Below, piece after piece: positions 1,657 to 54,400 of a stretch of DNA of 64,000 nucleotides. Origin of the DNA: Siphonodentalium dalli. Its lineage: Eukaryota > Mollusca > Scaphopoda > Gadilida > Siphonodentaliidae. Every line of letters begins with the position of its first letter. Positions within the stretch are counted from its first letter, which is position 1. The DNA lies in NCBI GenBank assembly GCA_032622095.1, contig CP136062.1, positions 227,552,578-227,616,577 of the forward strand, written 5' to 3'. The position numbers and the translations under genes are program-made. A model generated the notes under the pieces. That model saw only the letters and a list, made by a program, of their open reading frames with translations. It was not told where the DNA came from and did not search any database.

Positions 1657-2080
1657 TGTGACCCGCCATATCAAATCCAGTCGTAAGTCGGGATTTTTTT
1701 TACCCTGTGCCAATGCATTCTCTTATATATGCGAGTCGACCATAGGTCGCCTCGCATATATAAGAGAATGCATTGGCCTAACAATTTTTTACAATTTTAA
1801 TAATTTGTTCTTGTATTCTTTAACAATTTTATAATTTCACCCATACAGAGCCCCAGACAAACATGAGCAGACGACCCTCTTCTATATGCTTCTATATATG
1901 TGTGGGGCTCCATGCAGGGTAATGGATGTTTTTTATTTTATGTCCTAAAAATTGTAAGAAACATTTATTTAAAAAAAATGATAACAAATTGTTAGGCCAA
2001 TGCATTCTCTTATATATGCGAGGCGACCTATGGTCGAATCGCATATATAAGAGAATGCATTGGCACAGGGTAAACAAATA
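1657..2080. mobile_element. TGTGACCCGCC-family MITE with two hairpin modules, right end lost
   Basis: The left terminus TGTGACCCGCCATATCAAAT at 1657 matches the intact copy at 31551-31931. Two imperfect hairpins of about 69 bp (1709-1777 and 1996-2064) lie in opposite orientation around a centre containing CAGAGCCCCAGACA. The right terminal repeat is missing. Recognisable element stops around 2075-2080, within about 10 bp of the NKIRAS 5' splice site. The superfamily is unknown. Confidence 0.75.
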
Positions 2081-2090
2081 GTTTACTTAC

Positions 2091-2213
2091 AGATTCAATA
2101 ATGTGGTTTCCATAGATGAGCTGTTCCATGAGAGCAGTTTTCCCACATCCGCTCGTGCCACATACTAGAATCTTACTCGTCTTGCCCATCTCACACTTTC
2201 ATTTACTCAGGAC
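2091..2213 (-). CDS. NKIRAS: NKIRAS-like kappaB-Ras GTPase, first coding exon (partial gene)
   Basis: On the minus strand an ATG at 2189-2187 opens 33 codons ending at 2091, followed by a GTAAGT donor (2090-2085). A TTTTTTATAATAG acceptor lies just before 2213, giving 24 nt of 5'UTR in the exon. The peptide begins MGKTSKILVCG and carries a P-loop GTSGCGKT (residues 11-18), then EQLIYGNHII. In family terms this matches the N-terminus of kappaB-Ras (NKIRAS1/2), small Ras-like proteins that bind the PEST region of IkappaB and dampen NF-kappaB signalling. The residue equivalent to Ras Gly12 is Ser13, in keeping with the atypical P-loop of this family. The remaining exons should lie left of the window, so the gene is partial here. 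A plain Ras or Rap exon is the main alternative, but the YGNH motif after the P-loop favours NKIRAS. The exon lies between a MITE and a 1.9 kb TIR element. Confidence 0.82.
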
Positions 2214-2384
2214 CTATTATAAAAAACAAAAAGATTCAGAATATTAATATGATACATGTCCTCGGTGGGCTTCTAAAATATTATATATGGCATTTTGGCG
2301 CGAAAGCACTTTTTTGCATAAAATTATTTTGAAACTATAGGTTCATATGGGAGGCCAAAATCACTTTTAATAATTATTTGCGCT

Positions 2385-2775
2385 TAAGTGCAATTATTTG
2401 TGCTTAAGCACAATTATTTGCACTTAAGCACAATTAATTGTGATTAAGCGCAAATAATATAATTACGCTTAAGCGCAAATAATATAATTACGCTTAAGCG
2501 CAAATAAGGAAATTAAAAACCATAACCATATTAACCCTTTTGATATTGGCAGAGTCCACCACACATTAGGAGTTCGAAAATGGGGAAGCCTATTTAATTT
2601 TTGAGGGAAGATCTATATTGATGGGGAATGAAATGTACATATTTGAGCTTAAGCACAAATATTTTAGCTTGTGATTTACTGCCAATATCAAAAGGGTTAT
2701 GGTTTTTAATTTCCTTATTTGCGCTTAAGCGCAAATATTTTAGCTTAAGCACAAATATTTGCATTTAAGCAAGCC
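2385..2775. repeat. Tandem CTTAAG units around an internal palindrome
   Basis: Units of about 18 bp (GCTTAAGCGCAAATAATT) flank a foldback centred near 2615. Its arms include AAAAACCATAACC on the left and GGTTATGGTTTTT on the right, with CCCTTTTGATATTGGCAG inverted inside. Confidence 0.8.
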
Positions 2776-4054
2776 TGGAAGTCTGCCTACAGCCCTCCTA
2801 GAATTTTCCAAGGCAGGCTTTTTATAGCCCGCCTCGTCTACAATAGGAAATTTATTTTGTTATTTTATTGCGTTTTATGAGAAAAATACTGCCTCAAAAT
2901 CGTAAAGAATTATATTGTACAGTGTGCGTATGCGTGACATCGGCAACTGATGGTAATGTCAAATGGCGGAATCATTAAATTAAATTAAATAAATCAAATA
3001 AAGCAGTCACTTGTAATTGTATTCAAGTGTAAATATACTGGATTTAATATGCTACTTGATTGTGTATTTTATGTAACATTACACAACGTAGAAAATGCTT
3101 TAAACATTGACAAACTCACCCAATTTCATTGGATGGGTTGGACACCGACTGAAATTGTTGAGTACAAACACTCTTACATTAATTTTGTTTGTGGTTCATA
3201 TTAATTATCATAACACATAAAACATAATTAAATATTCACCATACCATTATCACCAAGCCATATTCCCCCATTCAAACTATTTCTTATTTACTTTACTTCA
3301 TATTCATTTCCTCTCAAATCTGTTCATTACTTTCAATCAATCATGCCTCAATTGTTCTTTATCTTTATCATCTTAACTAAGGCTTGCCACGTTAATTGCT
3401 AATTCTCCAATCAAGCTTCATATAACTCTTATCAATTGACATAAATCTTTACACCTATTATTCTAAATGTCCAGGTGGCAAGTCCTGCTGTTAATTAGTA
3501 TGCTTCAGGCTTTCACACGTCTTTGGCTAATCAAATCTATTGTTTCACTAAGTTGTATATATATATAAAAACTTCTAAATGTAAGTTAAGCAATTCATCT
3601 TTAGACTTCACTCTTCACGGCACCCGGTTCTTATTCTCTCTTCACGGCACCCGGATTATATATTGCATTTCATCGGCACCCGATAGATTGTTCAATACTT
3701 GTGTACCTAATATATGCTTGGAATTCAACAATAAATACTGTTATTACTATATATCTGGAGTCCATTGATCATCTTCATATCAAAACCTACCAGAGCTAAT
3801 TGACCCTGTGATATCAAATTCCAGTCCGTGTTACCATACTGTGGGGGATTTGACATTCACAACTCTGAACATTTTTTTTCCACACAACAAAATTTATTTA
3901 GATGAACTTATTATAAACATCAAAAATTGACAAAGGGTACTAGTAACTCAGGTAAAATAAATCATAACTGTAAAAGTTGAGGAGGGCTATAGCCCACCTA
4001 GGCAAATCTAGGAGGGCTATTAATAGCCCTATTGGATTTTCTAGACCGCCAGCC

Positions 4055-4240
4055 CTGATTAAGCTCAAATAATTGTGCTTAAGCGCAAATAATTGTGCTT
4101 AAGCGTAAATAATTTTGCTTAAGCGCAAATATTTGTGCTTAAGCGCAATGTTTTTACCCTTAAGCATAAATAATTGTGCTTAAGCGCAAATAATTGTGCT
4201 TAAGCACAAATAATGGCGCTTAAGCGCAAATAATTATTAA
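4055..4240. repeat. Tandem 18 bp CTTAAG repeat
   Basis: About ten imperfect units of GCTTAAGCGCAAATAATT form the right subterminal array of the 2337-4263 element. Each unit holds a GCGCTTAAGCGC-like palindrome. Confidence 0.85.
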
Positions 4241-4377
4241 AAGTGAATTTGGCCTTCCATAGGTTCGATTACATAAGTTCCTGATATACATGTATCTTGT
4301 CAACTTTTCAAGTATAAATGCCGAAAAATATAGTTTTTCTAAAATGTTGTATGTTTCGTGCAAATTTTTTTATTAAT

Positions 4378-4791
4378 TTTTTTACCCTGTGCCAATGCAT
4401 TCTCTTATATATGCGAGTCGACCATAGGTCGCCTCACATATATAAGAGAATGCATTGGCTTAACAATTTTTTATCATGTTTTTTAAATAAATGTTTCTTA
4501 CAATTTTTAGGACATAAAATAAAAAATCATCCATTACCCGCAGGGAGCCCCACACATATATAGAAGCACATAGAAGAGTGTCGTCAGCTCATGTTTGTCC
4601 GGGGCTCTGTATGGGTGAAATTATAAAATTGTTAAAGAATTCAAGAACAAATTATTAAAATTGTAAAAAATTGTTAGGCCAATGCATTCTCTTATATATG
4701 CGAGGCGACCTATGGTCGACTCGCATATATAAGAGAATGCATTGGCACAGGGTAAAAAATCCCGACTTACGACTGGATTTGATAAATGTTT
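4378..4791. mobile_element. TGTGACCCGCC-family MITE with two hairpins, left end lost
   Basis: Hairpins at 4391-4459 and 4678-4746 flank the same central segment as the 1657 copy. The right end retains AATCCCGACTTACGACTGGA, but the outermost terminus and the whole left terminus are absent. Confidence 0.75.
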
Positions 4792-9093: not shown

Positions 9094-9614
9094 GCTAAAT
9101 GAGTCTAACATTACAATAGATCCTCCTCCGATTTTATTGCCTAGTGCTTATTTTGCATTATATAGTCACGAAACGCTGAGAAATTAAAGGTGCTCAATCC
9201 GATCAGAGGGTCCCCATGTCACCAAGATACAACAACAACAACAACATTTCTTCAAAATACGTTTTAGTTATCAGAATCGATTAATTGTAACAAAATAATG
9301 CTAGCCACTGTCAACTATGGTATAAAATTTCCCAAAGCGTGTTATTTATCAGCATTTTGTTCAACGAAATATGGCCGTATTATCACTTGAGTAGGCCTAT
9401 TCACGAAATTTAACCGTATTACCATAGATCCTATTTTTAGTCTATATGGTATTATATACCACTTGTTTTTAGAGTTATCCATCTTCATCCGTAATTTTTA
9501 CCGAGGCCTGCTTTTACCGACGGCGTGCTTCTGGGCCACAAACAATTGAAATAACAAACTTAAAAAATCGATATCTGATCACTCTGAGCTTTGATGGGTA
9601 GGTTCTTCGACTCG

Positions 9615-9927
9615 ATTCACTGTTGGTGACATAATATATGGCTGGGACATATACCGGCGCACTGGTGGTGACATAATATATAGCTGGGACATATATAGAC
9701 CGACGCACTGATGGTGACATAATATCTGAATATATAGCTGTGACATATAGACCGGCGCACTGATGGTGACATAATATCTGAATATAGCTGGGACATAGAC
9801 CGGCGCACTGATGGTGACATAATATATAGCTGGGGCATAGACCGACGCACTGATGGTGACATAATATCTGAATATATAGCTGGGGCATAGACCGGCGCAC
9901 TCATGGTGACATAATATATAGCTGGGG
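9615..9927. repeat. ~50 bp satellite, block 1
   Basis: Tandem units built on GACCGGCGCACTGATGGTGA and CATAATATCTGAATATATAGC. Open frames here merely translate the repeat. Confidence 0.9.
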
Positions 9928-10988
9928 GCCTAGGGTCCTGTGAATTCTGGAAATCGAATCGAATATCGAATCGAATCATATCTGTGTGTTGCATTCTCAA
10001 TTGGGCATGTTTTGTCAACGATAATAGACGATTTGTGAAACGTTCTATCAACTACATGCACGAAGTTCCACCATAACTTATGTGGCGATGAACCGTCGTT
10101 TGCAATACTATTAACTTCAAATGATAATTGTCGAGAAAAAAAGGCAGATTAAAAAAAAACGTCTATGCGGCCGTCACGACGATAAATATATAACCACTAA
10201 ACGGATTATCAGAACTAAAATCACGCGAAATTTGTACAGTTTGCATGTACATGCAAAATTTCAAATCGACATTCGGAATCACCCGTTGTTATAAACTTGA
10301 AGATACAACAACAGTCGCAGGGTAGCCTGATTATGTAGCGCTGGATGCTTCTTGGACAGATGATTCCATAGATGGGTCATTGTCCCAGATGCCTGCGATT
10401 TATACACCATGCAGGTTGCATTCATCTCAAGTTTAAGTCCCCGCACTACCTGCAGATGTATCATGTTTAAAATAAACATGAATAACGACGACATTTTGTC
10501 AAGTGTCAAAGAACGCTCCGATGCCGGGAACACGTGTTGTTTAAATTCTCAGCTATACTATACATAATGCAGAATATGAGACGGATAGACGGCAGATAAC
10601 GCTATAGCGGTTGCTCAGTCTCATAGCTATTATTATTCACGCGCGTTGTCGGTCCATCGGTGATCTCCGAGCTTTTGGCTACCATGTTCAAAGCTAGAAT
10701 TCGGGCGTATTTAGTAGTCCTATAGTGGCTAATTGCTGGTTATACTTATATTTAATATATATAATCGCGATGTACAATAAGAATGATAAGGTGCATATAT
10801 ACATCATTTTCTGTAATTAAGTGGCACAAAAACAGCTAAGATCGATGTGTGTACTTGTCCGTAAACAGCCTACTTTTCCATCAGTGTATATTCGAAATTT
10901 CGAGTTGGCAATTTCGACTCGAATTCGAATCGAATTTGACTTTCGAATCGAATCTCGAATCGAATATCGAATATTCGCAGGACCTAGG
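9928..10988. mobile_element. 1.06 kb hAT-like insertion splitting the satellite
   Basis: Left GCCTAGGGTCCTGTGAA and right TTCGCAGGACCTAGG are inverted and lead into GAATCGAATATCGAAT strings. The satellite string TAGCTGGGG lies on both sides (9919-9927, 10989-10997), consistent with an 8-9 bp target duplication. A degenerate BED-finger frame inside supports hAT. Confidence 0.65.
10279..10533 (-). pseudogene. Degenerate BED-type zinc finger (hAT transposase or ZBED remnant)
   Basis: An 84-codon minus-strand frame contains NATCMVYKSQASGTMTHLWN followed by HLSKKHPAL. The spacing of the first Cys, the aromatic-rich HLWNH and the final KKHP fits a BED zinc finger as found at the N-terminus of hAT transposases and ZBED proteins. 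The second Cys of the C-x2-C pair is replaced by Tyr, so the finger should not bind zinc normally. No catalytic domain follows. The remnant sits within the 9928-10988 insertion, consistent with an internally deleted transposon. The family call rests on the finger pattern alone. Confidence 0.45.
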
Positions 10989-11275
10989 TAGCTGGGGCAT
11001 ATATAGACCGACGCACTGATGGTGACATAATATCTTAATATATAGCTGGGACATAGACCGGCGCACTGATGGTGACATAATATCTTAATATATAACTGGG
11101 ACATAGACCGGCGCACTGATGGTGACATAATATCTTAATATATAGCTGGGACATAGACCGGCGCACTGATGGTGACATAATATCTGAATATATAGCTGTG
11201 ACATAGACCGGCGCACTGATTGTGACATAATATAAAGCTGGGGCATAGACCGGCGCACTGGTGGTGACATATATA
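10989..11275. repeat. ~50 bp satellite, block 2
   Basis: Continuation of the GACCGGCGCACTGATGGTGA array after the hAT-like insertion, with about six units. Confidence 0.9.
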
Positions 11276-11279
11276 TAAT

Positions 11280-11835
11280 ATGTAAAGTTAGAATTAAAAT
11301 ATAAGAATTAAAATGTTAAGTTAGAATTAAAATATTAAGTAAGAATTAAAAGATTTAGTTAGAGTTAATAGAATGTTTCTGTAATGTTTCTAGAATGTTT
11401 CTGTAATGTAAATAGAATGTAAATAGAATGTAAATAGAATGTAAATAGAATGTAAATAGAATGTAAATAGAATGTAAATAGAATGTAAATAGAATGATGT
11501 AAATAGAATGTAAATAGAATGTAAATAGAATTAAAATATAAGAATTAAAATATTAAGTAAGAATTAAAAGATTAAGTTAGAGTTAATAGAATGTTTCTGT
11601 AATGTTTCTAGAATGTTTCTAGAATGTTTCTGTAATGTTTCTAGAATGTTTCTGTAATGTTTCTAGAATGTAAATAGAATGTAAATAGAATGTAAATAGA
11701 ATGTAAATAGAATTAAAATATAAGAATTAAAATGTTAAGTTAGAATTAAAATGTTAAGTTAGAATTAAAATATAAGAATTAAAATGTTAAGTTAGAATTA
11801 ATATGTGAAGTTAGGATTGTGACCCTAATAACCCT
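11280..11835. repeat. AT-rich minisatellites (GTAAATAGAAT and GTTAGAATTAAAAT)
   Basis: Runs of the 11-mer GTAAATAGAAT (about 11405-11530 and 11666-11712) alternate with GTTAGAATTAAAAT and AATGTTTCTAG-type repeats. The whole block is partly duplicated. Confidence 0.9.
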
Positions 11836-11839
11836 CCAT

Positions 11840-12260
11840 AATATATACACCGACGCACTGATGGTGACATAATATATTAATATATAGCTGGGACATAGAC
11901 CGGCGCACTGATGGTGACATAATATCTGAATATATAGCTGTGACATAGACCGGCGCACTGATTGTGACATAATATAAAGCTGGGGCATAGACCGGCGCAC
12001 TGGTTGTGACATATATAATATGTAAAGTTAGAATTAAAATATAAGAATTAAAATGTTAAGTTAGAATTAAAATGTGAAGTTAGGATTGTGACCCTAATAA
12101 CCCTCCATAATATATACACCGACGCACTGATGGTGACATAATATCTGAATATATAGCTGTGACATAGACCGGCGCACTGATTGTGACATAATATATAGCT
12201 GGGGCAAAGACCGGCGCACTGGTGGTGACATATATAATATCTTAATATAGCTGGGACATA
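11840..12260. repeat. ~50 bp satellite, block 3
   Basis: Further GACCGGCGCACTGATGGTGA units, duplicated together with a piece of the AT-rich minisatellite (11810-12020 resembles 12080-12240). Confidence 0.85.
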
Positions 12261-12369
12261 GACTGAATATATAAGGACACAATTGTTTCTCCTGACCCTA
12301 CTAAAAATACATGCATATGTACCATAAAAAAAACTCTCTATATATAATACTCAAGCGTAAGTATCTTTT

Positions 12370-13869: not shown

Positions 13870-14411
13870 TTGGCTTCGGGGGTAAAACAAAATGTTTGAT
13901 ATACGAGTCGAGAAACCCACCCATCAAAGCTCAGAGTGATCAGATATCGATTATTGAAGTTTGTTAGTTCTCGACATGTGCAATTATTTGTGACCCAGAA
14001 AAACGTCGTCCTATACGGACGACCTCGGACAAAATTGCGGATGAAGATGGATAACTCTAAAATCAAGTGGTAATACGGCAAAATTTCGTGATACTCAAGT
14101 GATAATACGGCCATATTTCGTTGAACAAAATGTTGATAATTAACACATTTTATGCCATCATATTTGGCAGTGGTTACTGGTTAGCATTATTTTGTTGCAA
14201 TTATTCGATTATGATAACTAAAGCGTATTTTGAAGAAATGTTGTTGTTGTATCTTGATGATATGTGGACCGTCTGATCGGATTGTGTACCTTTAAAATAG
14301 CCACCACAAACAGAAAGAATATTAAAATATAGAAATATATATTTTGTTCTGAAACCAATCATAAATATCGCGAAAATAGCATGTTATTGCCAAGTTCGTA
14401 AGCTATGTTAA

Positions 14412-15437
14412 CCCTTTACCCAACAAAACGGCCAAAAACGCCCAAATAAAGCTTCAACAGCCTAAAATATCTTCGGTCTGTCTAAATAACACCATACAAA
14501 TATGGATATCATTGGAACCGGTTCATTGACCACATTATGATGGTTACAGTTATGCCCTGTGCCAATGCAATCTCTTATATATGCGAGTCAACCATGGGTC
14601 GCCTCGCATATATAAGAGAATGCATTGGCCTATATACATTTTAACACTTTTTTACCATTTTTTAACAATTTTATAATTTTTTCTTACATTTTTTATAATA
14701 TTTTTCTACATTCTTTGACAATTTTATCATTTTTAATATGTGTTAAAGGGGTACTGTACCCAAGATGTTGTTGTTGGTTTCTATAATCCCCGAGTCGGAG
14801 AATAAGTTAACAACTTTTCCATTTTTTGAAAGTCTGTTGAGTACGAAGTATTGTTACGGATGGCAAATTTACCGGAATGCAAAAATACAAATTGTCGTTG
14901 TCGAGTAATTTTTGTAAAGTTTTCAACCAAATGAATCAAATAAACATTATATTATATGCTTAGTAGTCCCATATACTCATTTAAGTTAGTGTACCGTCAC
15001 TAGTCAATGAGTGGCTTGGGTTTTCTCCCCGTATAAGCATAATGTTTCAAACGATCGTGTGTGCAATTGTTTTCCTAATCCAGTATCCCTCAATTATAAT
15101 TTGATTACGTTTTGTACACGGAAATTCGAATTTTAAGAGACGCCATTTTATGGCTGGAGCCATAAAATCAATTTATATTAAATTATTAACTTTTAAATTA
15201 TTAAATTTTAAGATAGCCTATTAACCTGAGCGTTTACAGAATACATCTTCGACTCAAATTACTTATATTTCTATATAGTATCGATAATAGATCGTTGTTA
15301 TCACCGGGAATTTATTGAAAATGGCGTACAGTACCCCTTTAAGCCAATGCATTCTCTTATATATGCGAGGCGACCTATGGTCGACTCGCATATATACGAG
15401 AATGCATTGTAACAGGTCCGTTCTGTTGGGTAAAGGG
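14412..15437. mobile_element. piggyBac-like MITE (CCCTTTACCCAACA) carrying a nested element
   Basis: TTAA at 14408-14411 and 15438-15441 flank CCCTTTACCCAACA and TGTTGGGTAAAGGG. Hairpin modules are at 14561-14629 and 15343-15409. The native length is about 430 bp; the excess is the nested insertion at 14747-15338. Confidence 0.85.
14747..15338. mobile_element. 592 bp Kolobok-like MITE nested in the piggyBac-like MITE
   Basis: Termini AGGGGTACTGTAC and GTACAGTACCCCT are flanked by TTAA (14743-14746, 15339-15342). Sister MITEs at 27.03 kb and 47.07 kb carry the uninterrupted GTTAAGCCAATGC, showing the empty site with one TTAA. Confidence 0.9.
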
Positions 15438-15441
15438 TTAA

Positions 15442-20849: not shown

Positions 20850-20927
20850 ATTGGAAATCTTTGTTAATTCTTTAAAAAAGCAAGAGATTTCGCAGTGAAG
20901 TGCGCTCATAATTCGCCATTTTGTTAA

Positions 20928-21264
20928 CCCTTTGAAGAGTATCTGTAACGTCATATACCTGACGTCATGAGTAAATTTAACGTCAACGTCATAGCAATAA
21001 TTAACAAGATCGGGTCAAAATGGTCCAATGATTCGTTTTAATTTATGAGCATTTTTTGTTAACGTGTGTTATCATAATCGATTGCACTTATACATTTGGG
21101 ACATTATATTAATCAAAATAACTCCTATACAAATCATTTATAAATCAGATGATTTATTGAAGTTATGTCTACATAAAATAACACTTCCTGAAACGACATA
21201 TGTCGTTCTACTCCTCAACCGATAGACGACAATCACAACATATGTCGTTCTACTCGCCAAAGGG
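20928..21264. mobile_element. 337 bp piggyBac-like MITE (CCCTTTGAAGAG)
   Basis: TTAA at 20924-20927 and 21265-21268 flanks CCCTTTG and CAAAGGG. The interior has CGTCATATACCTGACGTCATG and two copies of CATATGTCGTTCTACTC. Confidence 0.7.
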
Positions 21265-21772
21265 TTAAAGTTAGGCCAGTTGACTGCATCGACCAACTTG
21301 TTGGAATTGTCATCTAATATAGGGACGACTCCTTGAATTCGACTGATACAGTCCTTGAATTAGTCCTTGAATCAAATTTTGAAAATCCTGTACGAACCAT
21401 GATATTGGAATGTGCATAAGTTACATCCCAGATGCTATATTGAGTCTCAGGGTGGGAATTTCATATTTCTCCTCTGGACCCTAAAAATGGCCCCAGTATT
21501 TTTACTCATAGTGGAAACTCTGGTTTATGGTACTACATTATTGTGATGATTAAAAATGAAGAGAAAGCAGTGTGAAGTTTTTAAACAGTTTCATGTTATG
21601 ATAATGCAATATACCTTTTCCAGACAGTTATTCTGTTTCTGTTATCAGAACTCCAATGAATACTAATGGCACAGTTGTTGCTAGGGGTCCAATTTTTGTG
21701 TCCGAAGTTGTATTTTGTATGGCTTCAATGCACCTTTCTGTGACATTTAATGCTTATACCGGTACTCTCCCC
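21265..21772. other. No gene recognised
   Basis: No exon or repeat family recognised. Confidence 0.4.
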
Positions 21773-38500: not shown

Positions 38501-41500
38501 TTTAGATAAAAAGAGACTGCCAACTAATTTTAATACGATGGAAATGTTAATTGAACGCTTATACAATGAAAGAAAACATTGCTATTTATCAACAAATTTG
38601 ATCTACCGAGGGAAAACGACCCATTTTAATCATAAAAATTAAGTCAGTCGGTTGTTTCGCGAACGAATCAAAACATACTCTAGTGATCCGAATAACCGTA
38701 CCCTGTACGATTGTTAATTTTGGAGAAAAAATCCACCCCCTACGATTCTTATTCAAGCCCCTACGATTATTTAATTTTGATCACCCATACTCCATTATTC
38801 GTAGTTTTTAATAAAATGGCATGCATGAAACGGAATACATTCAAAGAATTCGCGCAACCGTCTGGCATCGCAATATAATCAATGATTTGATCCATGGGAA
38901 GTAACTCCATCCTCGCACGTGTCGCTATTTTGCAATTCGTGCGACCCTATTGCAATAGACAGACCCCCCCTCTGCGGGTATTGTTTATCGTTCAGTGAGG
39001 CGAACAAAGGTGACAACGCGTTATGTCTGTGTTTTTTTTTACAATTGACACGTTATTAACTAAGAAGTTAATCAACGTCTGGGGCTCACGTTTGAAAGTT
39101 TCTTTAATTAGAACACAATTGAGTAGTTGGTGGACCGATTCCGACCAAAGAAAATTAATAGCATGAAAGTAAACCTTCCGCGTACCTCCGTCAAATAACT
39201 TGTGGTGTACGGGTCACGCGAGTTGTCAATGTCACATGATTTATACAAACCAACATACTACCAGTAGTACTACAGACGAAACTTATAAAACTGGGTGTTA
39301 CCGCTATACTTAAAGTAATTGACCATCTATAACGCGGTGTCACCCCGTTAATACCGCAGTATGATACCGCGGTACTGATGCCGCTTATTAACGCTTCAAC
39401 ACCGCGCATACCGCGGTGACCCCACGATGCATGCGGTCACGGTTCGCGATACCGCGGTGATTTTAAAGGACAATTTGCGCGGAAAAAAACAAAGGACACT
39501 GAAGAAATCTTCATTTATTGTGGTTATTTTATTTACTTATTATTGACGATGATGTTTTTTTGCCAATAGTGATTTGTCCATGTGTATAATATGCTTTTGC
39601 CAATAGTGATTTCTTTATGTGTCTGAGTCATCAAAAACTATCTCTTGAGTGGAATTTTTTTTCTCGTCTCGGTTACTTCCGGCCTCGACGGAAATCTTTC
39701 CACTTACGATTGAATCGTTGTCGTCTGAACGTTCACTAAATGCATCCCTTCAAAGAGTTCCATGAAAATCACCGCGGTATTCAAAACATTTATCACGGTG
39801 CCCGCTATCAGACCGCGGTATCCTTACCGCCGATACCGTAACTCCACCGCTGTGACCGTCTCGATACCGCTACCGTTTATTACAGGTATCACCACGGTCA
39901 TGACCGGGGTATCACCCCGTTTTTCTGGTCAATTACTTTGAGAATAGCGGTATGTTCTGATAAGAAAGGGACACCATACCCTTCCCGCATGTGTTACCGC
40001 TCAGGATCCCCTGAGTGTTAGATTTTTCGAGCCTTGTGCTGGAACTGAAAATTCGTATAAAAGTGTTGACGCAGTGTTCTCCGTTCAAATCAATGACATT
40101 GAAAAGGTTCTGCAAGAACCAGACGTTGTCCGGGCTGGGTCGTGGAGTGTTTATTATAAGTTTTTGTTTGATAATTAAATCAGTGTTCTTCAATGATCTC
40201 CTTTTTCATTGACATTTCCACCCCCTACTATTATTCCGACCCCTACTATTATTAAAATTTGGCAAATTTTCCATCCCCTACTATTATTCCGACCCCTACT
40301 ATTATTCGGATCACTAGAGTATGTCTTCCTCTTCCGGTTTGGGTAAATAAATAAAAATTCGGAACGTGCTGAAACGAAACTACTGAAATCCGCAAAGATC
40401 CGTATAGATCTAAAACAATTTAATTTATAGATCAATCTTACGGTACTTACCAAAACTCCACATCGAGTGCTTGCCGTTACGTGTGCAAATAAACCTTTAA
40501 AGCGCTTGAAATGTTATTTCCACGACGGTTAAATTTTAGATAGCATATCGCGGTATGTGATTACGCGGTACGTTTTTTTAACATAACGTGAATTTATAAT
40601 TAAAACTAAGAGATATAAAGTTTAACAAGAAGTTTATTTCCGCGAATATTTAAACAAGATGCCGCGACTAAAAAACCAGTGGTGTAAGAGTTTCTACTCT
40701 CATCCAAAATTTTAACACAGGGTAGGTAGAATATATATTTTTATTTCAAGGAAATATACATATTGGTATAAAAAGGGTGAAACTGAAACATTAAAAGTGA
40801 AACAAATCTTTTAATAAACAAAAGAATATTTCAGCGTGTTGTACAATGATTAAGAGTAGAAACAAACAAGTTTGGTCATGACTTTTAGCTATCAGATCAA
40901 TGAGTATGATAGTAGAAAATCACGAACAATTAAAGATTTTTTGTCAATATTATGACTAAATTTACCAACCTGAATAGCACAATATAAAGGTTCAGAATGC
41001 CCCAGATTCACTCTCAGGGCATTGGATTTTCAAAAATTTCCTGGGGGAGTGCCCCCAGATCCCCCTTTCAAAGGGAGGGGGACACACCCTCCCAAACCCA
41101 CCCCCACCTCTGGCCTACGGCCATCGGGATATGCCTACGGCATATCGTCCTAGGACTGACAGGGTGCCCAAACTTAAAACCTAGATTAGTCCCTGGCAGC
41201 CATCTTGGATTTTACTCTTTGCATTTAGAATCCTTTGGCACAGGTAAGACATTTCAATCAGCATCTTTCCTATGGTCGACGCATATATAAGAGAATGCAT
41301 TGGCACAGGGCCCTTCTGTTGGGTAAAGGGTTATACCAGAAAATTTTGAAATAAAATAAATATTACTTGATAGAAGCTTTTGCAGACTGGGGTCTTCGAT
41401 TCAAATTTATTAATTTATACCCAGGAAACTATACAACACATGTTAAAGGAAGAGATAGACCATCTTTAACCCTTCCATGAGTGGAGCTTCCTGAAATTTT

Positions 41501-44500
41501 ACGAACCCTGTGCCAAAACATTCTCTTGTATATGCGAGTCTCCCATAGGGAGCCTTGCATATATAAGGGAACACATTGGCCTAACAATATATACCTTGAT
41601 CTTGTAAGCCAGTACATTCTCTTATATATGCGAGGCTCCCAAAGGGAGACTCGCATATATAAGAGAATGCACTGGCACAGGATATTTAATGCTGCACCAA
41701 CGCAGCTCCCATCATGAAAGGGATAACAAGTGAAGTGAATATTTGAAAAGTCTAATTAATAATTTTGTTAACTTTAGAAGCCGAAGCAGAGATCGCCGAG
41801 ATAGAGACAAGCACGGACATGGAAGCAAGAACAGAGACAGTGGAAGGCGTCGTCATTCATCTCGCGAGAGAAAGAGGAGCAGAGATAAGGAAAGGAAATC
41901 ACCGAGAAAGAGGAGTCGATCGAGGGAGAGGAGGAGACGAAGCATCACAAAAAGCCCTATACGGTTAGCAGAGTTTTCTTAACCCCATGATGGGAGCTGT
42001 GCTGGTGCAGCATTAAAGATCCTGTGCCAGTGCATTCTCTATTGTATGAGTCTCCCATGGGATCCTTGCATGTATAAGAGAAAGCACTGGCTTACAAGGC
42101 CAAGTAAATATCTTTGGGTCAATGCATTCTCTTGTATATGCGAGGCTCCCTATGTGAGACTCACATATATAAGAGAATGCATTGGCACAGGGTTTTTGCC
42201 AAATTTCAGGAAGCTCCAGTCATGGAAGGGTTAAAACCTTTTCTATATGAAAATAATCAGGATAAAAATTCCCACTTTGTGGAAGAAAAATGTGCAAAAT
42301 CGTGCTCAAGAGGAGGTTTGAACTGGCCACTTTGGATCTCCCCATTGGTTCTTATAGCTTTGATGTTATAGGAATTTCCCTGAAGTACATACTCTACTGC
42401 ATTTGGAACATTCTTACCGGGAAGTAAGAGAATTCATCCTCTGGAAACCTCATTCTGCATGGCCTCATCTGTTATTGGAGACCTAGCCACAGATTTAAGT
42501 TACCAGATGGTGAAAATGGTTCTGTGTACCCATTGTGCCCCTTGATTATACATTGTGTTGTCTGTCAATTGGGGAAAATGAAAAACTAAACTAAAAAATA
42601 ATAAGAAACTTTTTAAAGCCAAAAAAAAGGGTTAAAAGTCATTTAATCTTATTTAAAAAATCATTTAATCTTATGTAAAAATGACATTGTACTACCAGTA
42701 TATGGCAGGGATTACCTAACATTATATAATGTCCCTGACTATTTCACTATTGTTATTGCTGTCTATCTTATTTTCTCAACAATTCTTTTTATTTTAGGGA
42801 GGCTGAACCAGAAATGACTCCAGAAGAGAGAGATGCACGAACAGTTTTCTGCATGCAGTTATCTGCTCGGATCAGACCCCGTGATTTAGAGGAATTCTTT
42901 TCCTCAGTTGGCAAGGTATAACTTTTATCTCATGGGCTGTGGACCAGATTAAAAAATATTCATGTATCCTACCAGTATATCTTTGAAGCTATATAAAGGC
43001 CAAACAAAACAAATATTTGATTCTCAGGCAATATCTTTTTTTAAATCAATGTGGGAGCTAGGGTTTAATTTCATTTTGTTCTGCCCATAGACTGGCAAAG
43101 TAAGCATGGGTTAGTATTCCTTTCCAGGTCCAGAAGATGTAGGGAGAACTTTGTAATGGATATAAACTAATTTAATCTGATGTAAAGAATGACAAATTAT
43201 GACTGCTACCTGTACATCATATAGGGATTACCTAGAATGATATATATGTTGATATGATTTTGATATTGACACAATAATTTTTAACAACAATCAGAACTAC
43301 ATATCCGATTTATATAAAAATACAGAACATAAATACAGTCGAAATGAAAAGATAAAGTGATCTTCCAAACTATCATAGAAAGTCTTGATTCACTTATTCT
43401 GCTGACTGATTAGACACCGTATATCTACCGCAATGGATGTGGATGATAGACAATAAAATTTCAAATAACCATCATAAATATGGCCAGTATACACTGCTTG
43501 TCAAACTCTATTGCGCTATGCTTTTGGGTTACTTTGTTCGCATTAGTGTAGCAAGGGGGAAAACTCTATCTTGCTGGGTTACTTACTGTGGAAAGGTCAG
43601 GTGAATATCCAACTTCCTGCTGATCTTTTATCGAAATATTTCAACACAATTGACCAATAAACTTGGGGGTTTGGACAGCCTGTGGTGACAATATACCTGA
43701 TAGTTATCATTGCCTATGGTCTTTTGTTAAATACCCAAACATACATTGTATTTAGCTCCTATTCGACATTTGAAGCATAACTAATTTCCGATTGAAAGTT
43801 TCCTTTTTTCATGTTACCGGTTTACAACTATGGTGAAATCCAAATTGAAATAAAATGGTCCAACGCTGGCCAATTTTTTTTTAACGATGTGCCGATGCCT
43901 GAGAATCAAAACCTTTTTTTTTGGCCTAACCCTTTCTACACTAAAGTATCATTGAGTTATCCCACAGGGAATGTTCAGATATTAAGTTCAACAAACGACT
44001 ATATGGGTTGTTTGTTGTACTTACTATCTAAACATTTCCATAAATAAATATGACTCTTTCTGTACTTTTAATTATCTGTCGTCTGCATATATTACCTGTA
44101 AATTACTCCCCTTGCTCCCTGAAACTAACCTTCTCTGGAAAACTATGGTGATCTATCGTGAGATCACGCTGATATTCCAATACCAGTATGTTACAGGAAT
44201 TCAGATGAAAACGAAGTGTAATATTGATTACACAATTTATTAGGGCAAGAGTGAGGCAAGCTCAGCATGTTACACAGTGAATATTATACATGTACATAAG
44301 ATGCATCCATCATCTTCACCACACATTCACTCAGTTCGACAACCACCTGTCAAAAATTGTCAAATAATTCCAAATTGGCGCTAAGTTCAAAGGTGACAGG
44401 TCACAGTTCCGGTCGATATGAATTAGTATAATTTCCGGATATTTGTTCGATACCGGGCACCGGAACGAAGTGCGATCGCGGATTGGGGAATAATTAATTA

Positions 44501-45451
44501 TTATTCTAATAATAGCTACATCCCAGTAAATCAATAATAGACCATTACGATGTACACTTTTTAACTGACTGGGAAAATCAATTTAGTATAGAAAGCAGTC
44601 CTCAAAATTGACCATGGCAATAAGGAATGCCGTGGGAAATGCCATGGCAACATGTGCAAGGTAACATGCCACAGCATTAAATTTGCCATCTGGGAAATTG
44701 TTCCGAATTTCAAGGGCTGAGAAAGAGTTACAATTATTCTATTCATGTTTTGGGAAACAACATTAATAGTATTCCCAATTCTACCATAATGATAACAAAC
44801 TACTAAAGCAATCAGCCAGGCCATCACACACTTTAATTAAGTTAATTAATAAAAATTTGTGTGCTGAACCAACAAAGTTAGGACTAGAAGTGACTACACT
44901 CCACTGATTTCCCGCCGAAATCAATTCTCCAATAACAACTTTTCATTGGCTGCTGGCTTAATGAAAACTCCGCCTACTCATAACATACATTATTCATTGA
45001 GCTGTGAATACAATACTTTCCCGCTAATACAAGAAAACGCGGGAAAGTTATCATTAATTTCAGTTTAGTAAATTGCTATATCACTTTCTTCTTGTATTAT
45101 GCATGTACATTGTCTATGAAAATACAGGTTGGCCCACTTAGTTAATTAACTCAGTTCAAGTCAGTTGCCCCATGTTCACCAACATCAAGCCTTTCTATGA
45201 GTGGTTGTCCCTTAGGAGATAAAATGAAATGCAGTGAACGAAAAACAGGTTGCCTAGAAAATTGAGAAGCTCTGATTAATTAGCTTAATAATTACTCAAT
45301 CAAGTTCATAAAAACAGGATGTTCAAAGAATTACCATTGTTCATTATTAGTGAATAATAGTAAAAAGCTGAAATGATTTAACCCTTTGAGTGCCAGGGGC
45401 CGATCTCATCGGCCCTAAACCTACAAAATAAGTCGGAATAAATTATTAAAA

Positions 45452-45489
<38 letters not shown>

Positions 45490-48400
45490 TTAGGCCAATG
45501 CATTCTCTTATATATGCGAGGCGACCTATGGTCGACTCGCATATATAAGAGAATGCATTGGCACAGGGTATATGGGTTGATACAAAAATCGGACCTGGCA
45601 CTCAAAGGGTTAAACATATAATGCAACAACATTGCTGAAGAAATTAAAAAAACTTGAATAGTGCTGAATTTAGAAAATGTTGTAGGTTAAATAAAACTAA
45701 TAATAATAATAGTAATGAAGTATCATTATCATAATTAAGATCAATATTGCATTGTATTTTCATTATTAATGACTATTATAACAAATTTTTGAGGGAAATT
45801 TCCAGTGATTGAAGCAGTCTGCATAATCTTTTAAGTAACCTATGGGACATAGTATGAGTTATCGGAAAATTCCAGGGGAAAGAACTATGGGTCACCTATT
45901 AAACATCAACCAGGAGAACGAAACATAGTTGAAATGTGCAGGCCTGTTTAAGTTAGATGTACTATTAATATATAAATTGTACTTTGATAATTTTTCAGGT
46001 TCGGGATGTCCGTCTAATCACAGACAACAAGACCAGGCGTTCTAAGGGCATTGCATACATAGAGTTTGCCGACACAGAGTCAGTAGCTCTAGCCCTACAT
46101 CTAACTGGTCAGCGCTTACTCGGCGTGCCCATATTGGTTCAGGTATCGCAGGCCGAGAGAAATCGTATTGGAAATGCGACAAATGCTACAACTAGTCTCC
46201 TGACTAAAAATTACCAGGGACCAATGAGGCTATATGTTGGCTCTCTCCATTTCAACATCACCGAAGAAATGCTCCGAGGAATATTTGAGCCATTTGGGAA
46301 GGTGAGTTTTAGATCTTTATAATCCAAATGATAGGACATAATATAATGATGATATAGTGTTGAAAATTTCTTAATATAAGTTAACCCTTTCATGAATTGA
46401 GCTTCCTGAATTATTGCGAAAACCCATGCCAATGCATTCTCTTATATATGCGAGTGGACCATAGCTCGTCGCCTCGCGTATATAAGAGAATGCATCGGAC
46501 TAACTTATTTTATATTATTCATAATTGTTAATGGGTCTCGAAACCCTGTGCGTGCAACCTTTTTATTGGCAGAACAATTTTTGTTTTTTTTTAACCAAAA
46601 AAAAATTAATTATTTGTCAAATTTTATTATTAAGTCTGTTACAAGTGTATTTCGAGGAGTTTGACAAGACTGTTTTGTATTGTATATAAGCTCTTTAAAA
46701 TAGTGTTATGTGGTTTAATTATTATAGTTAACCCTTTACCCAACAAACCGGCCAAAAACGCCCAAATAAAGCTTCAACAGCCTAAAATATCTTCGGTCTG
46801 TCTCAATAACACCATACAAATATGGATATCATTGTAACCGGTTCATTGACCACATTGTGATGGTTACAGTTATGCCCTGTGCCAATGCATTCTCTTATAT
46901 ATGCGAGTCGACCATAGGTCGCCTCACATATATAAGAGAATGCATTGGCCTAAAAAAAATCTTTTACCATTTTTTCTTACATTCTTTAACAATTTTATAA
47001 ATTTTTCTTACATTTTTAAACAATTTTTATAATATTTTTCTACATTCTTTGACAATTTTATCATTTTTAATATGTTAAGCCAATGCATTCTCTTATATAT
47101 GCGAGGCGACCTATGGTCGACTCGCATATATAAGAGAATGCATTGGCACAGGGCCGTTCTGTTGGGTAAAGGGTTAATGGTAATTGAACATGGTAATTAA
47201 ATTGTTTTGAACATTTGTCTATACATGTTGCATCAATATCTAACCTTTAAGAGAGTTAAATGATGTTTGTCATGTTTGAAAACTTAATCTGATTTGAAGG
47301 AAAGGGAGTGAACAGTCCTATAAAACAACATAGTGTGTATGATATGACTTAACTTTACCCGTGTGACTATGTGCCTACTTCATCTTACAACTGGATCATT
47401 CCAAATGAAAACAGATTGTTGTGGTAGTAAATTGATAGTTTCAGTGACGAGTGAACTGTTGAATATAAAATATTCAAGCTTTGCTTTAATGATATATATA
47501 ATTTCAGATTGATGATATTAAGTTGATAAGAGACCATGAAACTTCGAGATCACAGGGATACGGATTTTTAACTGTAAGTATTGAGATGATATCTGCATGT
47601 TGAATATTTTCGTGGCATTGGTAATTATCTAGTGGATTGGACTCATGAAATTTGCGTTCAATGCTGGCCTCAACACAGTCTGAGTAAACTCATACCTAAA
47701 TATTCATTACAACATTGAATATAAGGTCTGACGGATAACATCGCTATCTCATTTCCAAGTCCTCGGGATTCCGTAATCTGATTGATTGCGTAAATTATTT
47801 TCCGTCCAATGAAACCGTATGGGTTAATAAACAAGTGTTAGTGGGCGGAGACTCCCATAATGTCACCTCTAATTATAGTAACAGAGCTGAATTTCTCCGA
47901 TCGAAAGCGATGCTTGCAAATACAACAGAGACAGAAACAATGGCTTCGAAATTATATATTCGGTACGATTCGGATTAATTTGAAGGATGTGCTAGACCTG
48001 ATAGATAGGCCTGCGCATGGTACCAACTTGGCCTCCCATAAATATAAATAGAACTCACTCATGTCCGTGTATTTGATTTACTTTATTGTACCATGGTTTG
48101 CAAATCAAATTATTTGTCGTAAAAAAGTCATCTGAAAGTTAACACCGAGGAAATGACTTAATTTTATGCTTTTAAATAGTTCTAAAGCATCATTTTTGAT
48201 GACGACCTTATATTTTGCTCTCGGATGCAGCTTTCCGGTTGATGCAGCGAGTTCATCTCCCGAAAAAGAATAGTCGCACACACGACAAATATCTGCTGTA
48301 AGTTTATGTCGCGACACAGGCCATTGCTATTGCGAAGCACAACAAATAACACGTGGGGACACCTGTCAATCATCGATGTATTTTTAAAAATCCGTGACGT

Positions 48401-51400
48401 CATTTTGGGGAAGCTCTTCGCTGAATAGAAATGGTTTTGGCGACATAAGCTCCAGACTCTATATTTCAAATATAGAGTCGACGTTCACCCAGACTGGCCT
48501 CAACATATATTGTCGGGACATTTGTTGAATGAAGTCCCTAAATCCACCTTCTGGGGACCTTAGACCTCATCTTCTCTGGAAAGGATCTTTATTATCAAAA
48601 TAACCTAAATAACAAGTTTTTTAGTGTCTTCGAAGATGTTTCTTTTTCTTTATTAGTTTAGATTCTCTACATACCAAAATTGGCAGATGACACAATGCAT
48701 AATCAAGGTGACCAATAGGTACACATCACCATCTGGGAATTTAAATCTGAGTCTCACATAGCAGATGAGTCCATGCAGAATGAGTTCCCCCAGAGGGTGA
48801 ATTTAGTGATGCTAGCCCACAGTGCTATGCCCTAATTTTACCCTCTGGGGACCTCATTCTGCAAATGTCCAGCACCATATTTTATGGCCTGGTTCAAAGT
48901 CTCAAGAAATCACATGTTTTCCTACTCTCAAATAGTGTCCGTCATTTGCAGAATGAGGTCCCCAGAGGGTGAATTTAGTGATGCTACACAGCATTGCAGG
49001 CTAACATCATCAAATGCACCCTCTGGGGACCTCATTCTGCTTAGGCCTCATCTTCTGGGAAGTATCTATAGTCTCAAATTAACATGTGTTTTTAGTTACT
49101 TCTGTCCAGTTTCTATATCCTATAATTTGAAGATGATAAAATGCATAATCAAGGTCACTAATAGTTGAATATCACCAACTTCAACTGGGGAACTTCCATC
49201 TGATCATAGGTCTGCCATAGTAGTTGAGGACTAAGCAGAATGAGGATCCCAGAGGGTGAATTTGGTGGCACTAGCCCACTCTGCAGGATAATGTCACCCT
49301 CTGGGGACCTCATTCAGTAAGTGACAGAATACACTTGGTGTGCTCTATGAATGATGCAAACAACATGGTAATTATAATGACTCCAGTCATAAACTCATTT
49401 TCATTATAATTACCATGGTTTGTGCATCGTTCATAGAGCACACAAGTGTATTTTGCACTCATCCATGGCTAAAATTAATTCATTTGTTGCATATATTCTG
49501 TTGGGTATAAAAGTAGATGGTCCCATAAAAGTCCCCCTTCAAGGCCAAGCGTGAATCTTTTGCTGACTGTGTGACAACAAAAACAAAATGGCAATACGAC
49601 CTAAATACGGTCATTAACCATATATGAACAGTGCCTTAGAATCACTAGAAATTTTGACTTGTAACAGAATGTTGTGCGCCCCATCCATGTGGCAGCCCTG
49701 GCATATTATTTATTGCATCCGATTCTAACCATGATGTACTAGCTACGACAATCGACCTAACAGGGTGATGTGATCATGCAAGATATTGGTTCCCATGCGA
49801 AATATATTAATCTCAGAGTGTTCCCCTATGTAGCTGTAATACTCAGAGTCCTGGACATTTTCTAGCCAAATCGAGTCCCTTTCTACGTACCGCTCTATAG
49901 AGTCTCTAGAGGAACACTCCGAAGATCACCACCAAATTTCATGGGAGCATTTTATTGTACATAAAACTGACGATTAAAATCTAGAAACTACTCGCCAGTT
50001 ACAGCATGAAGGCCTTATAAATCTACCACATGTGTCTATGGGAAAACTTTTATTTAGGGCCTATGGAACTAGATTGAAATGTAAACAAGCTTATTATAGT
50101 ATTTAAACCATTGTTTTGTAGTTTAACAATGCTGATGAAGCCCGGAAAGCTTTGGAGCAGCTGAACGGTTTTGAGTTAGCTGGCCGTCCAATGAAGGTTG
50201 GTCATGTGACAGAACGAGTGGCTCAGGAACAGAACAATTCGGCTCTGGACAGCGATGAGATGGACCGAGCCGGGATCGATTTGGGAGCGACCGGCCGGCT
50301 ACAGCTCATGGCTAAGTTGGCTGAAGGTAAATATTGTCTTATCCAGGCGTCAAAATATGGTGCCGGACATTTGCGGAATGATGTCCCCAGATAGTGAATT
50401 TAGTGACACGACAGTCATATGCGATAATACGTCGCGCTTTGCGATTGGCCAACGTCACTGCAACTATCCAATGAGAATGCTCGATACATCGCTGCTCTAT
50501 TATAATATAACTGCGCTATTTATATCTCGCTCCAATGCGGTCATTTACCGTAAACCCGGAAATGTAAGAGGTGATTAATTACGGATCATCGGCGTGTTGT
50601 TGTATCGCGAATATTCAAGGCTTTTCAAGGCCCATTGCCCATATTCCAGGATTTCAAGGCCTTGAACCACACCTTGTCAAATTCAAGGCCGTTCCTTGAA
50701 TCCAAGGCCCAGCGGGAACCCTGATTATGATACCTTCCCTTGTCTAGTAATAGTCAGAAAATTTAGAGGGAACTTTGTAATGCATATACCCTTATTTAAT
50801 ATGATATAAAAATTACATTGTAATACCAGTATATGACAAATGGATTACCTATAACGTTATAATGCCCCTGACTATTCACAATTGTTATTGTCTATAAATT
50901 GACACCTGTAAATTATAACATGTGATCCTAAATTTCCTCCACTTGATTTAATTATGCAATGTTTATTTACACAAACTGGATTTAATTATACAATGTTTAT
51001 ATACACAAACTGGATTTAATTATACGATGGTTATTTACACGAACTGGATTTAATTATACAATGTTTATTTACACAGACTGGATTTAATTATCTTATGTTT
51101 ATTTACACGAAGTGGATTTAATTAATCATACTATGTTTATATACAGGAACTGGATTTGAGATACCACATTATGCTGCCAATGCTCTGATGAACAGTTCAA
51201 ATGGTGCTCCTCAACAGCAACAGCAACTTCCCACAGGCATGCAGATTCCTGCAGCAACCGCCCTGGCTCCGCCCATAGCAACTCAGTGCTTTATGCTATC
51301 CAATATGTTTGATCCAGCTTCTGTGTAAGTTTAATTATTAGGGCATTAAAATATCTTGTGTTCTCAGGCAATTAGATCTTAATTTTGAAATGAGAGGGGG

Positions 51401-54400
51401 GAGCTATTTATTTCTATTTTATCAGAATAATCCATAGTCCAAAGAAGGGACAGCAATATTAACAACCGAATCATTTGTAATGCTCTATTTTTATCAAGCT
51501 ATTATTATACCCCCACTTTCGAAGAAAATGGGGGGTATACTGGATTGACTGCGTCCGTCCGTCTGTCCGTCACGCTTTCTCCATCCGTTCATCCGTCCGT
51601 GTTTACTAATGACTACTTATGTGGCTAAGATTGTGTAAAATGGATATTTATGTGCATAACTTCCGTTGCGTGGCTAGCCACGTAACAGCTTTCAGATGGA
51701 CGTTCTAAAATGATCTATTTGGCCTAATCAGCTTATTTAATTTTGTAGTCACTCAAAATTTGGAAGAAAAAAGTCCATCGATTTAGACATCCATGACCCG
51801 TCAATAGGAGATGTCGGACACTGACAAGACATTTATGTGGCTAGCCACCCAATCACGGACCTGTCAGTTTCTCCTATTCCACTGTCCCAGTTGCTGTGAG
51901 CAAGTTTTTGAGTTTTAATCAGCTTCTTCTGCTATAATTCCAACATGTTATGAATCCATAATCTGGAGTTTTATCACTATCTACTACTTGATAGCCACTT
52001 AAAATTTTATGGCTACTTGAGAAGCCACATAAAAACTAAAGCCACATTACCATTTCTAGCCACATAGGTCGAAGCCACATATCTACCCATTTGTTGGTAC
52101 GTCCGTCCGTTCATCCGTCCGTCCGACCTCATAACTCGAACAACTATGAACCGATTTCAATAATTTATTGTATGCAATCTCTTTAGGACGGTCTCTCCGC
52201 ATGATGCTAATTGCGGTTCGGTCAGACTTTTTTTTTTTCAAGGTACGCCTCTTTTTCGACTTATTTTGACTTAGAAAATTCTGTCCGACTTAATAACTTT
52301 AACAAATATGAACAGATTTCAATAATTTTTGTTATACATGCTTCTCACAATACCCTCTCTACATGATGCGGCTAGGGATTGGCTCAGACTGTTTTTCGTA
52401 ATATTACACCTCATTTTCGACTTATTTTGACTTAGAAAATTCTGTCTGACTTAATAACTTTAACAAATATGAACCGATTTGAATAATTTTTTCTGTACAA
52501 GCTTCTTGTGACACCATATCGATATTAGTAGTCCGAATTTTTCTTTAAAGTTAAAAATCTTTTTGGTTGAGTTTACGGATAATGCGGGTTGAATTTGCTA
52601 CGGTGGGGGTATGCTAGCACTAGAGTGCACACCTCTTGTATTGTATTTATTTCTATTTTTTCTCAAAATCTGGAAAACGTACTCCAAAAAAAAAATGTTT
52701 GACGAGGCTTCTTTAAATATCATTTTCCATTCTATGAAACTAATTGAACTTGTACCTTCCTAATATTAATTTGCGAATAATTGTAATGTAGATTTCACCA
52801 AGTTTTGTCATTTCTTTCAATTAAATGCCAATACGCTGAAAAATTGCCATAATTTTCATAAAACCTTCTGCAGCCTATGTTCATTCATGAAATTTAAATG
52901 CATTCAAGATATATATAATTCTGTCTAATTTTGTCCCAAAGTTTGTTTTATGTTTAATCATAAGGAACCATCACAAAACCGACAATAGAATGACTTCCGA
53001 TAGTTCCTTCACAGGTGTAAATTCAAAGCGTTATTCTGAAAAAGAGTTTAAACTTCAATATTTGAATTACCAGCACGATCAGAGATATTTGTTGACAAAT
53101 CACTGACAGTAATGTTTACATAACATTGGTTCAACATGCAAAATATAGTTTTTGTGGAATAATTTATAGTCGGTTTGCGAACAAAGTCGATCTATTTTCC
53201 CGATGTTCTTGGTGACAATTGACTTTTATGTAGGGCCCTGCGAATCGGAAATTCGTACCATCTTATTCATTCATAACATGTTAATATAGTTTGATCGTTA
53301 ATATATTAACAGTGTGGATACTAAAATGTATTAATATGCAACTAGCATAATTATGAAGCACAACACACTTGGCAAGTTAACATAAGTAGGTATGAATGCA
53401 CGTTCATCGATTAGAAGAAACAAAAGCAAACACTAACTATATAAAATTATATAGACCGTAGATGTCTTGAATTTTGAACTGCATATAGTGATTATATTCA
53501 CTGATATACTATATTTTACCCCAACATTGTCCAAGAACAACCATGTTAAAATGTATTCACATCCGTGAAAGCGCGCCAAGACTGTGATTGCGCGTAATCA
53601 TGTAAACTCTAAATTACCTCATACGCGAGACCTCCAGACAGGAAAACACAGTGCAAGCAGCAATTGCACAATAAATTGACCTCCATAAATACAAAAATTA
53701 GTTTTGTCCCCATTAACTGGAACAGATAGGCAGATTCGAAAATATATACGAATCGGAGAGCCGATACGGTATCGATCCCGAATCTGAACACCGATGTCGA
53801 CATCGAATCTTCGCAGCGCCCTACTTTTATGATTTCTCATATCTTCCCACTGCGAAGGCCTAATGCCCCTTTCATGACGGGAGCTGCGCTGGTGCAGCAT
53901 TAAAGATCCTGTGCCAGTGCATACTCTTATATATGCGAGTCTCTGATAGGGAGCCTCGCATATATAACTAGAATGCACTGGCTTACAATGTGAAGGTAAA
54001 TATTGTTAGGCCAATGTATTCTCTTTTATATGCGAGGCTCCCTATGGGAGACTCGCATATATAAGAGAATGCATTGGCACAAGATTTCTGCAAAATTTCA
54101 GGAAGCTCAGTCATGGAAGGGTTAAATTATTTTTGTTATCAAATTGTATTACAATGTACTAAATTAATCAGTTATAAATATGGTTCTTTGACCTTGTTGA
54201 ATGTTTTTCCACTAATTAATAAGAAATATATATTCACAGTGACCAGAAACCAAACTGGGACCAAGAGATTCGAGATGAGGTGATTGATGAATGCAATAAG
54301 CATGGTGGAGTCATACACTTGTATGTTGACAAAGCATCGCCGTCGGGGAACGTCTACATCAAATGTCCAAGTATTGCGGCAGCTGTGTCATCTGTGAATG

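Follow-up and report, generated by a model that had tools for sequence, protein, structure and literature searches.

A 69-bp hairpin common to miniature transposable elements with unrelated ends in the scaphopod Siphonodentalium dalli

Short transposable elements that differ at their ends and have an internal region in common have been described in Acropora corals. These elements, the CMITEs, form families of miniature inverted-repeat transposable elements (MITEs) found at TTAA, whose ends differ and are mostly of the CCCTTT type, with a single conserved region inside; their authors link the families to piggyBac-type mobilisation, and call the origin of the shared internal region a mystery (PMC2872659). 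TTAA duplications together with CC[C/T]T ends are given as the hallmarks of piggyBac/TTAA MITEs (PMC2872659). In piggyBac itself, identical 19-bp palindromes are described in both ends, lying at unequal distances from the tips, the left-end one being bound by two cysteine-rich domains (PMC11707139), and for human piggyBac-like elements it has been proposed that inner inverted repeats allow hairpins or cruciforms (PMC12324416). Here we describe a 69-bp hairpin that recurs in a stretch of 64,000 nucleotides from Siphonodentalium dalli (assembly GCA_032622095.1, contig CP136062.1, positions 227,552,578 to 227,616,577 of the forward strand; hereafter the window), where it is carried by MITEs of four backbones, referred to as A, ACCC, CAT and GAG. 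All counts of hairpins and elements refer to this window.

The coral CMITEs are the nearest precedent that we found. As described, they are also short TTAA MITEs in which the ends differ by family and the internal region is more conserved than the ends. The CMITEs are about 100 bp long with one internal region of 75 bp, whereas the elements here are about 230-440 bp long (leaving aside one ACCC element split by a nested insertion) and usually contain the 69-bp hairpin twice, in inverted orientation. Unlike the CMITE region, the hairpin is also found in one backbone without TTAA, and the main text of the CMITE paper nowhere uses "hairpin", "palindrom" or "secondary structure" (PMC2872659). The likeness to piggyBac lies in the palindromes inside the ends and, for the ACCC elements, in their unequal distances from the tips (PMC11707139). 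There are also differences: against a stem of 27+5 bp here, piggyBac has a palindrome of 19 bp, and the search for human-type inner repeats used arms of 5-15 nt; piggyBat is described without a palindrome on its right end; and no transposase is linked to the present elements. Six strings from these elements did not occur in the literature searched. A 21-base word from the hairpin arm had no exact match in viral_contigs or genome_contigs, nor had a 20-base word in viral_contigs.

The module reads GCCAATGCATTCTCTTATATATGCGAG-T-CGACC-ATA-GGTCG-C-CTCGCATATATAAGAGAATGCATTGGC. In the copy at 1709 it folds into a 27-bp stem, a single T·C mismatch, a 5-bp stem and a 3-nt ATA loop, with a folding energy of -54.3 kcal/mol (z about -14). 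A first-pass annotation of the window had counted some 25 copies. With the hairpin at 1709-1777 as query, blastn gave 30 matches at about 29 sites, of which 20 are near full length, three are altered (a left/right fusion at 25737, a shortened copy at 31823 and a truncated one at 36352) and six are fragments; the six examples located by the annotation lie exactly where it placed them, with small sequence differences. The first 14 bases of the hairpin, with up to three mismatches allowed, match 58 times, compared with a mean of 5.75 in 100 shuffles (standard deviation 2.38, maximum 13). The family makes up 18 of the 28 short-loop hairpins above the score threshold in the window.

This hairpin module is common to backbones with unrelated ends. 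All four of the backbones that the annotation had told apart by their ends are present, and the majority 69-base hairpin is identical in A, ACCC and GAG, the last being represented by one copy. Among the 11 full-length copies in these three backbones, the inner stem is CGACC/GGTCG in ten and CAACC/GGTCG in one. The CAT backbone carries the form CTCCC/GGGAG, exact in three of its nine copies and decayed by one or two bases in five; the exception is the copy at 46428, where a CGACC-like hairpin stands behind a CAT end. Flanks were compared using one copy per end for six ends, the ACCC right window extending beyond the end of the element. For the 40 bp outside CCCTGT, none of the 13 comparisons between families showed a likeness above that of shuffled sequence, an equal or higher score being reached by 85 to 500 of 500 shuffles, and blast queries with the outer flanks gave no cross-family match at E 0.05. 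The inner flanks are partly alike in three of the 13 comparisons: of 500 shuffles, none did as well as the match of A to ACCC, 8 did as well as that of A to CAT and 27 as well as that of ACCC to GAG; this likeness lies in A/T-rich sequence, and the other ten comparisons are weaker. It had been suggested in the annotation that the module moves between backbones. Sharing is borne out by the identical majority hairpin and the unrelated outer flanks, and capture or exchange is what we infer from it.

The placement of the hairpin is regular. Copies that can be oriented by their flanks usually have CCCTGT or CCTGT on the outer side and a CTAACA-like sequence on the inner side, and 16 of the 20 near full-length copies are arranged in inverted pairs, in which the same side faces outward. 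Head-to-head pairing, as claimed earlier, is seen in eight two-hairpin elements, starting at 1658 and 4376 (A), at 14408, 26747 and 46728 (ACCC), and at 41466, 41979 and 53867 (CAT). Both hairpins of a pair carry the same mismatch, with T on the left and C on the right. The outer flank in these eight elements is CCTGT at 15 of the 16 hairpins, the remaining one, at 54010, having CTTGT, and from this constancy it follows that the hairpin belongs to an inverted-repeat architecture.

Judged by their sequence, the ACCC, CAT and GAG backbones are best classed as piggyBac-type MITEs, TTAA-flanked and CCCTTT-ended. TTAA adjoins 16 of the 21 ends examined in these families (the fragment ends at 30640 and 34433 being excluded), and starts at 0.9% of positions in the window as a whole. 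The other five ends have TTAT, ATAA or unrelated bases, as with ATAA at 41329 and TTAT at 41720. The end sequences of these backbones are CCCTTTACCC, CCCTTTCATGAC and CCCTTTGAGTGCC, and complete elements have tips of the CC[C/T]T type with short inverted repeats at both ends, namely CCCTTTACCCAACA, CCCTT(T/C)CATGA and CCCTTTGAGTGCCAGG; one CAT end (41983) reads CCCCATGA. The placement is asymmetric in the three ACCC elements that have two hairpins, one hairpin being 139-149 bp from its tip and the other 26 bp, and in backbone A the distance is 50-51 bp where the outer arm exists. It is worth adding that further apparent TTAA elements with CCCTTT ends, without the 69-bp hairpin, are found at 20924-21268, 34661-34986 and 2531-2694.

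Taken as a whole, we read the hairpin as a subterminal palindrome that MITE source elements shared, or captured from one another, that transposition then multiplied, and that likely has a role at the level of DNA; we put the probability of this reading at roughly 0.6. The module, bounded by CCCTGT or CCTGT on the outside and normally present once per MITE end, would have passed between source elements by recombination or template switching, and would then have been copied along with the transposing elements, as the dispersed copies of the same elements and the TTAA at 16 of 21 ends suggest. Two or three paired changes would have become fixed in a source lineage, probably through copying of the palindrome. 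Template switching can create paired changes of several bases in a stem in a single event (PMC8794818); this fits the CGACC/CTCCC block, but it was shown for RNA genes, and here it would apply to a transposon palindrome in one window. By analogy with piggyBac, the hairpin is probably a cis element acting in DNA, a putative subterminal palindrome bound by transposase or helping the ends to pair.

That such hairpins can recombine is suggested by two altered elements. In the ACCC element at 25584, the single hairpin (25737-25805) combines the left half of a left hairpin with the right half of a right one, and T stands opposite A instead of C, as expected from a deletion between left and right hairpins. 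In the backbone A element at 31552, the collapse of the first hairpin to GCCAATGCATTGGC fits a deletion between two AATGCATT direct repeats, and the second hairpin has lost part of its centre. Both the collapse and the fusion resemble ordinary palindrome accidents.

Several observations weigh against the reading of a shared subterminal palindrome with a DNA-level role. Backbone A ends in TGTGACCCGCC (starting TGTGACC), has no TTAA, does not have the CC[C/T]T motif and belongs to no recognised superfamily. The CAT hairpins are symmetric, at 42-46 bp from both tips, and the GAG element has a single hairpin, at distances of 47 and 112 bp from its tips. No transposase was found among the 10 open reading frames scanned with Pfam, out of 111 listed (at least 75 codons), and flank searches of the window turned up no hairpin-free copy of these backbones. 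The hairpin could also be mere passive cargo.

The annotation had gone further. It had noted compensatory changes in the inner stem, which it allowed palindrome correction could explain, and had taken the kept mismatch to suggest a functional secondary structure. In an alignment of 20 copies (15 distinct sequences), covariation is present in three of 32 pairs, in about two blocks, and always between subfamilies: pair 5/70, A-T in most copies, is G-C in the three right hairpins of CAT elements; the CGACC/CTCCC difference consists of two neighbouring pairs, 31/44 and 32/43. The chance that three differences per arm fall on complementary partners is 7.5e-6. The pairing of the changes is real, yet about two events in source elements are enough to account for it. 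The covariation score, the number of cells paired and the number of cells changed on both sides are above those of all 500 shuffles, values that relatedness of the copies alone can cause to be exceeded; the three covarying pairs and the 13 further pair types are no more than shuffling gives, as many or more appearing in 359 and 456 of the 500 shuffles, respectively.

Within copies the changes are of a different kind. In 636 stem-pair cells from the 20 copies, there are 46 one-sided departures from the subfamily consensus and no two-sided ones, where 0.83 two-sided departures are expected under independence, the subfamily consensus absorbing the three covarying pairs by construction. Forty-one of the 46 are distinct, and four of these 41 are common to two or three copies, so that not all are separate events. 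The change of G to A in column 67 is common to three CAT left hairpins, where it breaks the pair and is uncompensated. Compensation therefore stands as a difference between subfamilies and is not seen within copies, since after insertion the copies change without it; uncompensated stem changes, which the annotation had itself set against its proposal, are what the copies in the window carry. The T·C mismatch is indeed kept in all 20 near full-length copies (the three altered copies being left out). However, the chance that none of the 40 mismatch cells would change is 0.23 at the observed rate, and its retention thus says little about function. Selection on pairing, as deduced from covariation, was considered and rejected, none of the 46 departures being compensated. 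A functional secondary structure, as read from covariation and the kept mismatch, is mostly not borne out. From the distribution of changes, the matched arm changes appear to trace to a few old events and not to continuing upkeep of each copy; the arms would match because many copies are young and because a source lineage had acquired a few paired changes that became fixed.

Another MITE family with palindromes (GAATGAGGTCCCC..., GAATGAGGTCCCCAGAGGGTGAATTT...) has hairpins at 24068-24162, 28527-28676, 30957-31045 and 48948-49040, and neighbouring copies are present around 28510. Inspection by eye shows one or more paired changes in a further copy. The observation is anecdotal, and it means that paired changes may not be peculiar to the 69-bp hairpin.

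Rates of change were compared between hairpins and flanks. In ACCC, 8 of 478 hairpin bases are changed as against 28 of 845 flank bases (p 0.08), and the left hairpin changes less than the left flank in five of six copy pairs, which are not independent. A pairwise recount in A gives 2 of 138 and 9 of 217 (p 0.21), and with ACCC and A pooled and recounted the hairpin changes more slowly (p 0.03), again with pairs that are not independent. In CAT, hairpins and flanks do not differ, with changes at 37 of 568 and 22 of 361 bases respectively (p 0.89). Slower change of the hairpin is thus a weak trend, found in the younger families (ACCC and A) only. A first pooled count of 10/754 against 44/1259 (p 0.004) was set aside because a misalignment of one base had raised its figures for A.

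Other explanations have to be weighed against these results. It may be that the two-hairpin core (CCCTGT-hairpin-CTAACA ... TGTTAG-hairpin-ACAGGG) is itself the transposon and was inserted into several older MITEs, which we regard as unlikely, the chance being low but appreciable. In favour of such a core, the families compared have an abrupt outer boundary close to CCCTGT, the inner flanks are partly common (A with ACCC, A with CAT, ACCC with GAG), and backbone A copies 1 and 2 both lose the outer arm soon after ACAGGGTAAA. However, the core boundaries of ACCC, CAT and A show no common target-site duplication, the flank searches gave no backbone free of the core, and the distance between the hairpins differs, at 27 bp in CAT and 218 bp in A.

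A slightly smaller chance is given to the view that the hairpin is a palindrome without a role, hitchhiking in MITE families that are related through end-swapping recombination at the palindrome. In its favour, the fusion in the element at 25584 points to recombination of the hairpins, the copy at 46428 joins a CAT left end to a CGACC-like hairpin, and the changes in individual copies are uncompensated. Against this, inverted subterminal pairs across families with unrelated ends are more regular than cargo requires.

Less probable again, and doubtful in our view, is that the hairpin is a portable transposition signal, an asymmetric palindrome acquired by different MITE families, one of them outside the TTAA group, and enabling mobilisation by more than one transposase. 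If that were true, the terminal tip would be separate from the recognition site and MITE ends would be modular.

The location of the hairpins bears on a last alternative, in which they are functional RNA structures, for example small-RNA precursors with pairing under selection. Of the 30 blastn matches, 24 fall in the stretch bounded by the outermost RBM39 exons identified (23470-54878) and two between NKIRAS exons, so that these are probably transcribed. Together with the very stable fold, the three covarying pairs, the covariation score and paired cells above all shuffles and the weak trend to slower change in ACCC and A, this favours a role in RNA, which is nevertheless very improbable given 46 one-sided and no two-sided departures, an uninformative mismatch, numbers of covarying pairs and pair types within the shuffle range, CAT hairpins that have diverged as much as their flanks, no Rfam match in the whole window at the gathering threshold, and a 3-nt loop that is small for a Dicer-type precursor.

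The elements themselves are as follows. Backbone A copy 1 (1658-2079, + strand) has the left end TGTGACCCGCC, a hairpin at 1709-1777, an inner spacer and an inverted hairpin at 1996-2064; it is without the right outer arm and sits between two NKIRAS exons. The interval 2064-2091 is of note in that the first NKIRAS coding exon has its apparent 5' splice site only about 26 nt upstream of a full hairpin, which puts a stable structure very close to the splice donor. Copy 2 (4376-4784, - strand) is inverted relative to copy 1, with hairpins at 4391-4459 and 4678-4746, and has a single outer arm, which is truncated. Between these two inverted copies are arrays of a 20-bp unit around TTAAGCGCAAATAATTGTGC (2364-2515, 2632-2780 and 4039-4255). 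Copy 3 (31552-31930, + strand) has both TGTGACC ends; its collapsed first hairpin occupies 31602-31615 and its second is shortened to 58 bp (31823-31880).

All but one of the ACCC elements are on the + strand. The element at 14408-15441 begins with TTAA and CCCTTTACCC, and has hairpins at 14561-14629 and 15343-15411; nested in it at an internal TTAA, and splitting it, is another element (14743-15342), which has ends of the AGGGGTACTGTAC type and adjoins the second of these hairpins. The fused element extends over 25584-25835. Two hairpins are present in 26747-27136 (26890-26958 and 27038-27106) and in the complete element at 46728-47177, with TTAA on both sides (46881-46949 and 47079-47147). 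The element at 36198-36415 is truncated, its hairpin starting at 36352, and a right-end fragment on the - strand (41280-41333) contains a partial hairpin. The GAG element (45378-45613, - strand; TTAA, CCCTTTGAGTGCCAGG) has its single hairpin at 45494-45562.

Three CAT elements have two hairpins: 41466-41724 (+ strand; 41512-41580 and 41608-41676), 41979-42234 (- strand; 42026-42091 and 42118-42186), with TTAA at both ends, and 53867-54125 (- strand; 53913-53982 and 54010-54078). A rearranged element at 28752-29163 (+ strand; TTAA, CCCTTTCATGAC) has hairpins at 28800-28867 and 28992-29061 and partial ones at 28895 and 29093. The CAT left end at 46381-46499 (+ strand) carries the CGACC-like hairpin (46428-46499), its right end not being recognised. 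There are also a right-end fragment with a partial hairpin (30640-30700, - strand) and a degenerate hairpin pair without assigned strand (34468-34552).

Two genes were identified in the window by tblastn. RBM39 exons run from 23470 to 54878 on the + strand, the query being a human protein, and Pfam gives RRM_1 and RBM39linker; NKIRAS exons run from 2189 to 870 on the - strand. Repeated open reading frames on the - strand at 9517-12350 translate into repeats of a peptide resembling HHQCAGLCPSYI, and so point to a tandem repeat.

The uncompensated changes in individual copies imply that covariation between subfamilies of a transposon palindrome should not, on its own, be taken to show that an RNA structure is maintained. 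A long palindrome in inverted subterminal pairs, together with its instability, is a candidate for how the shared internal regions of MITEs may be recognised and exchanged.

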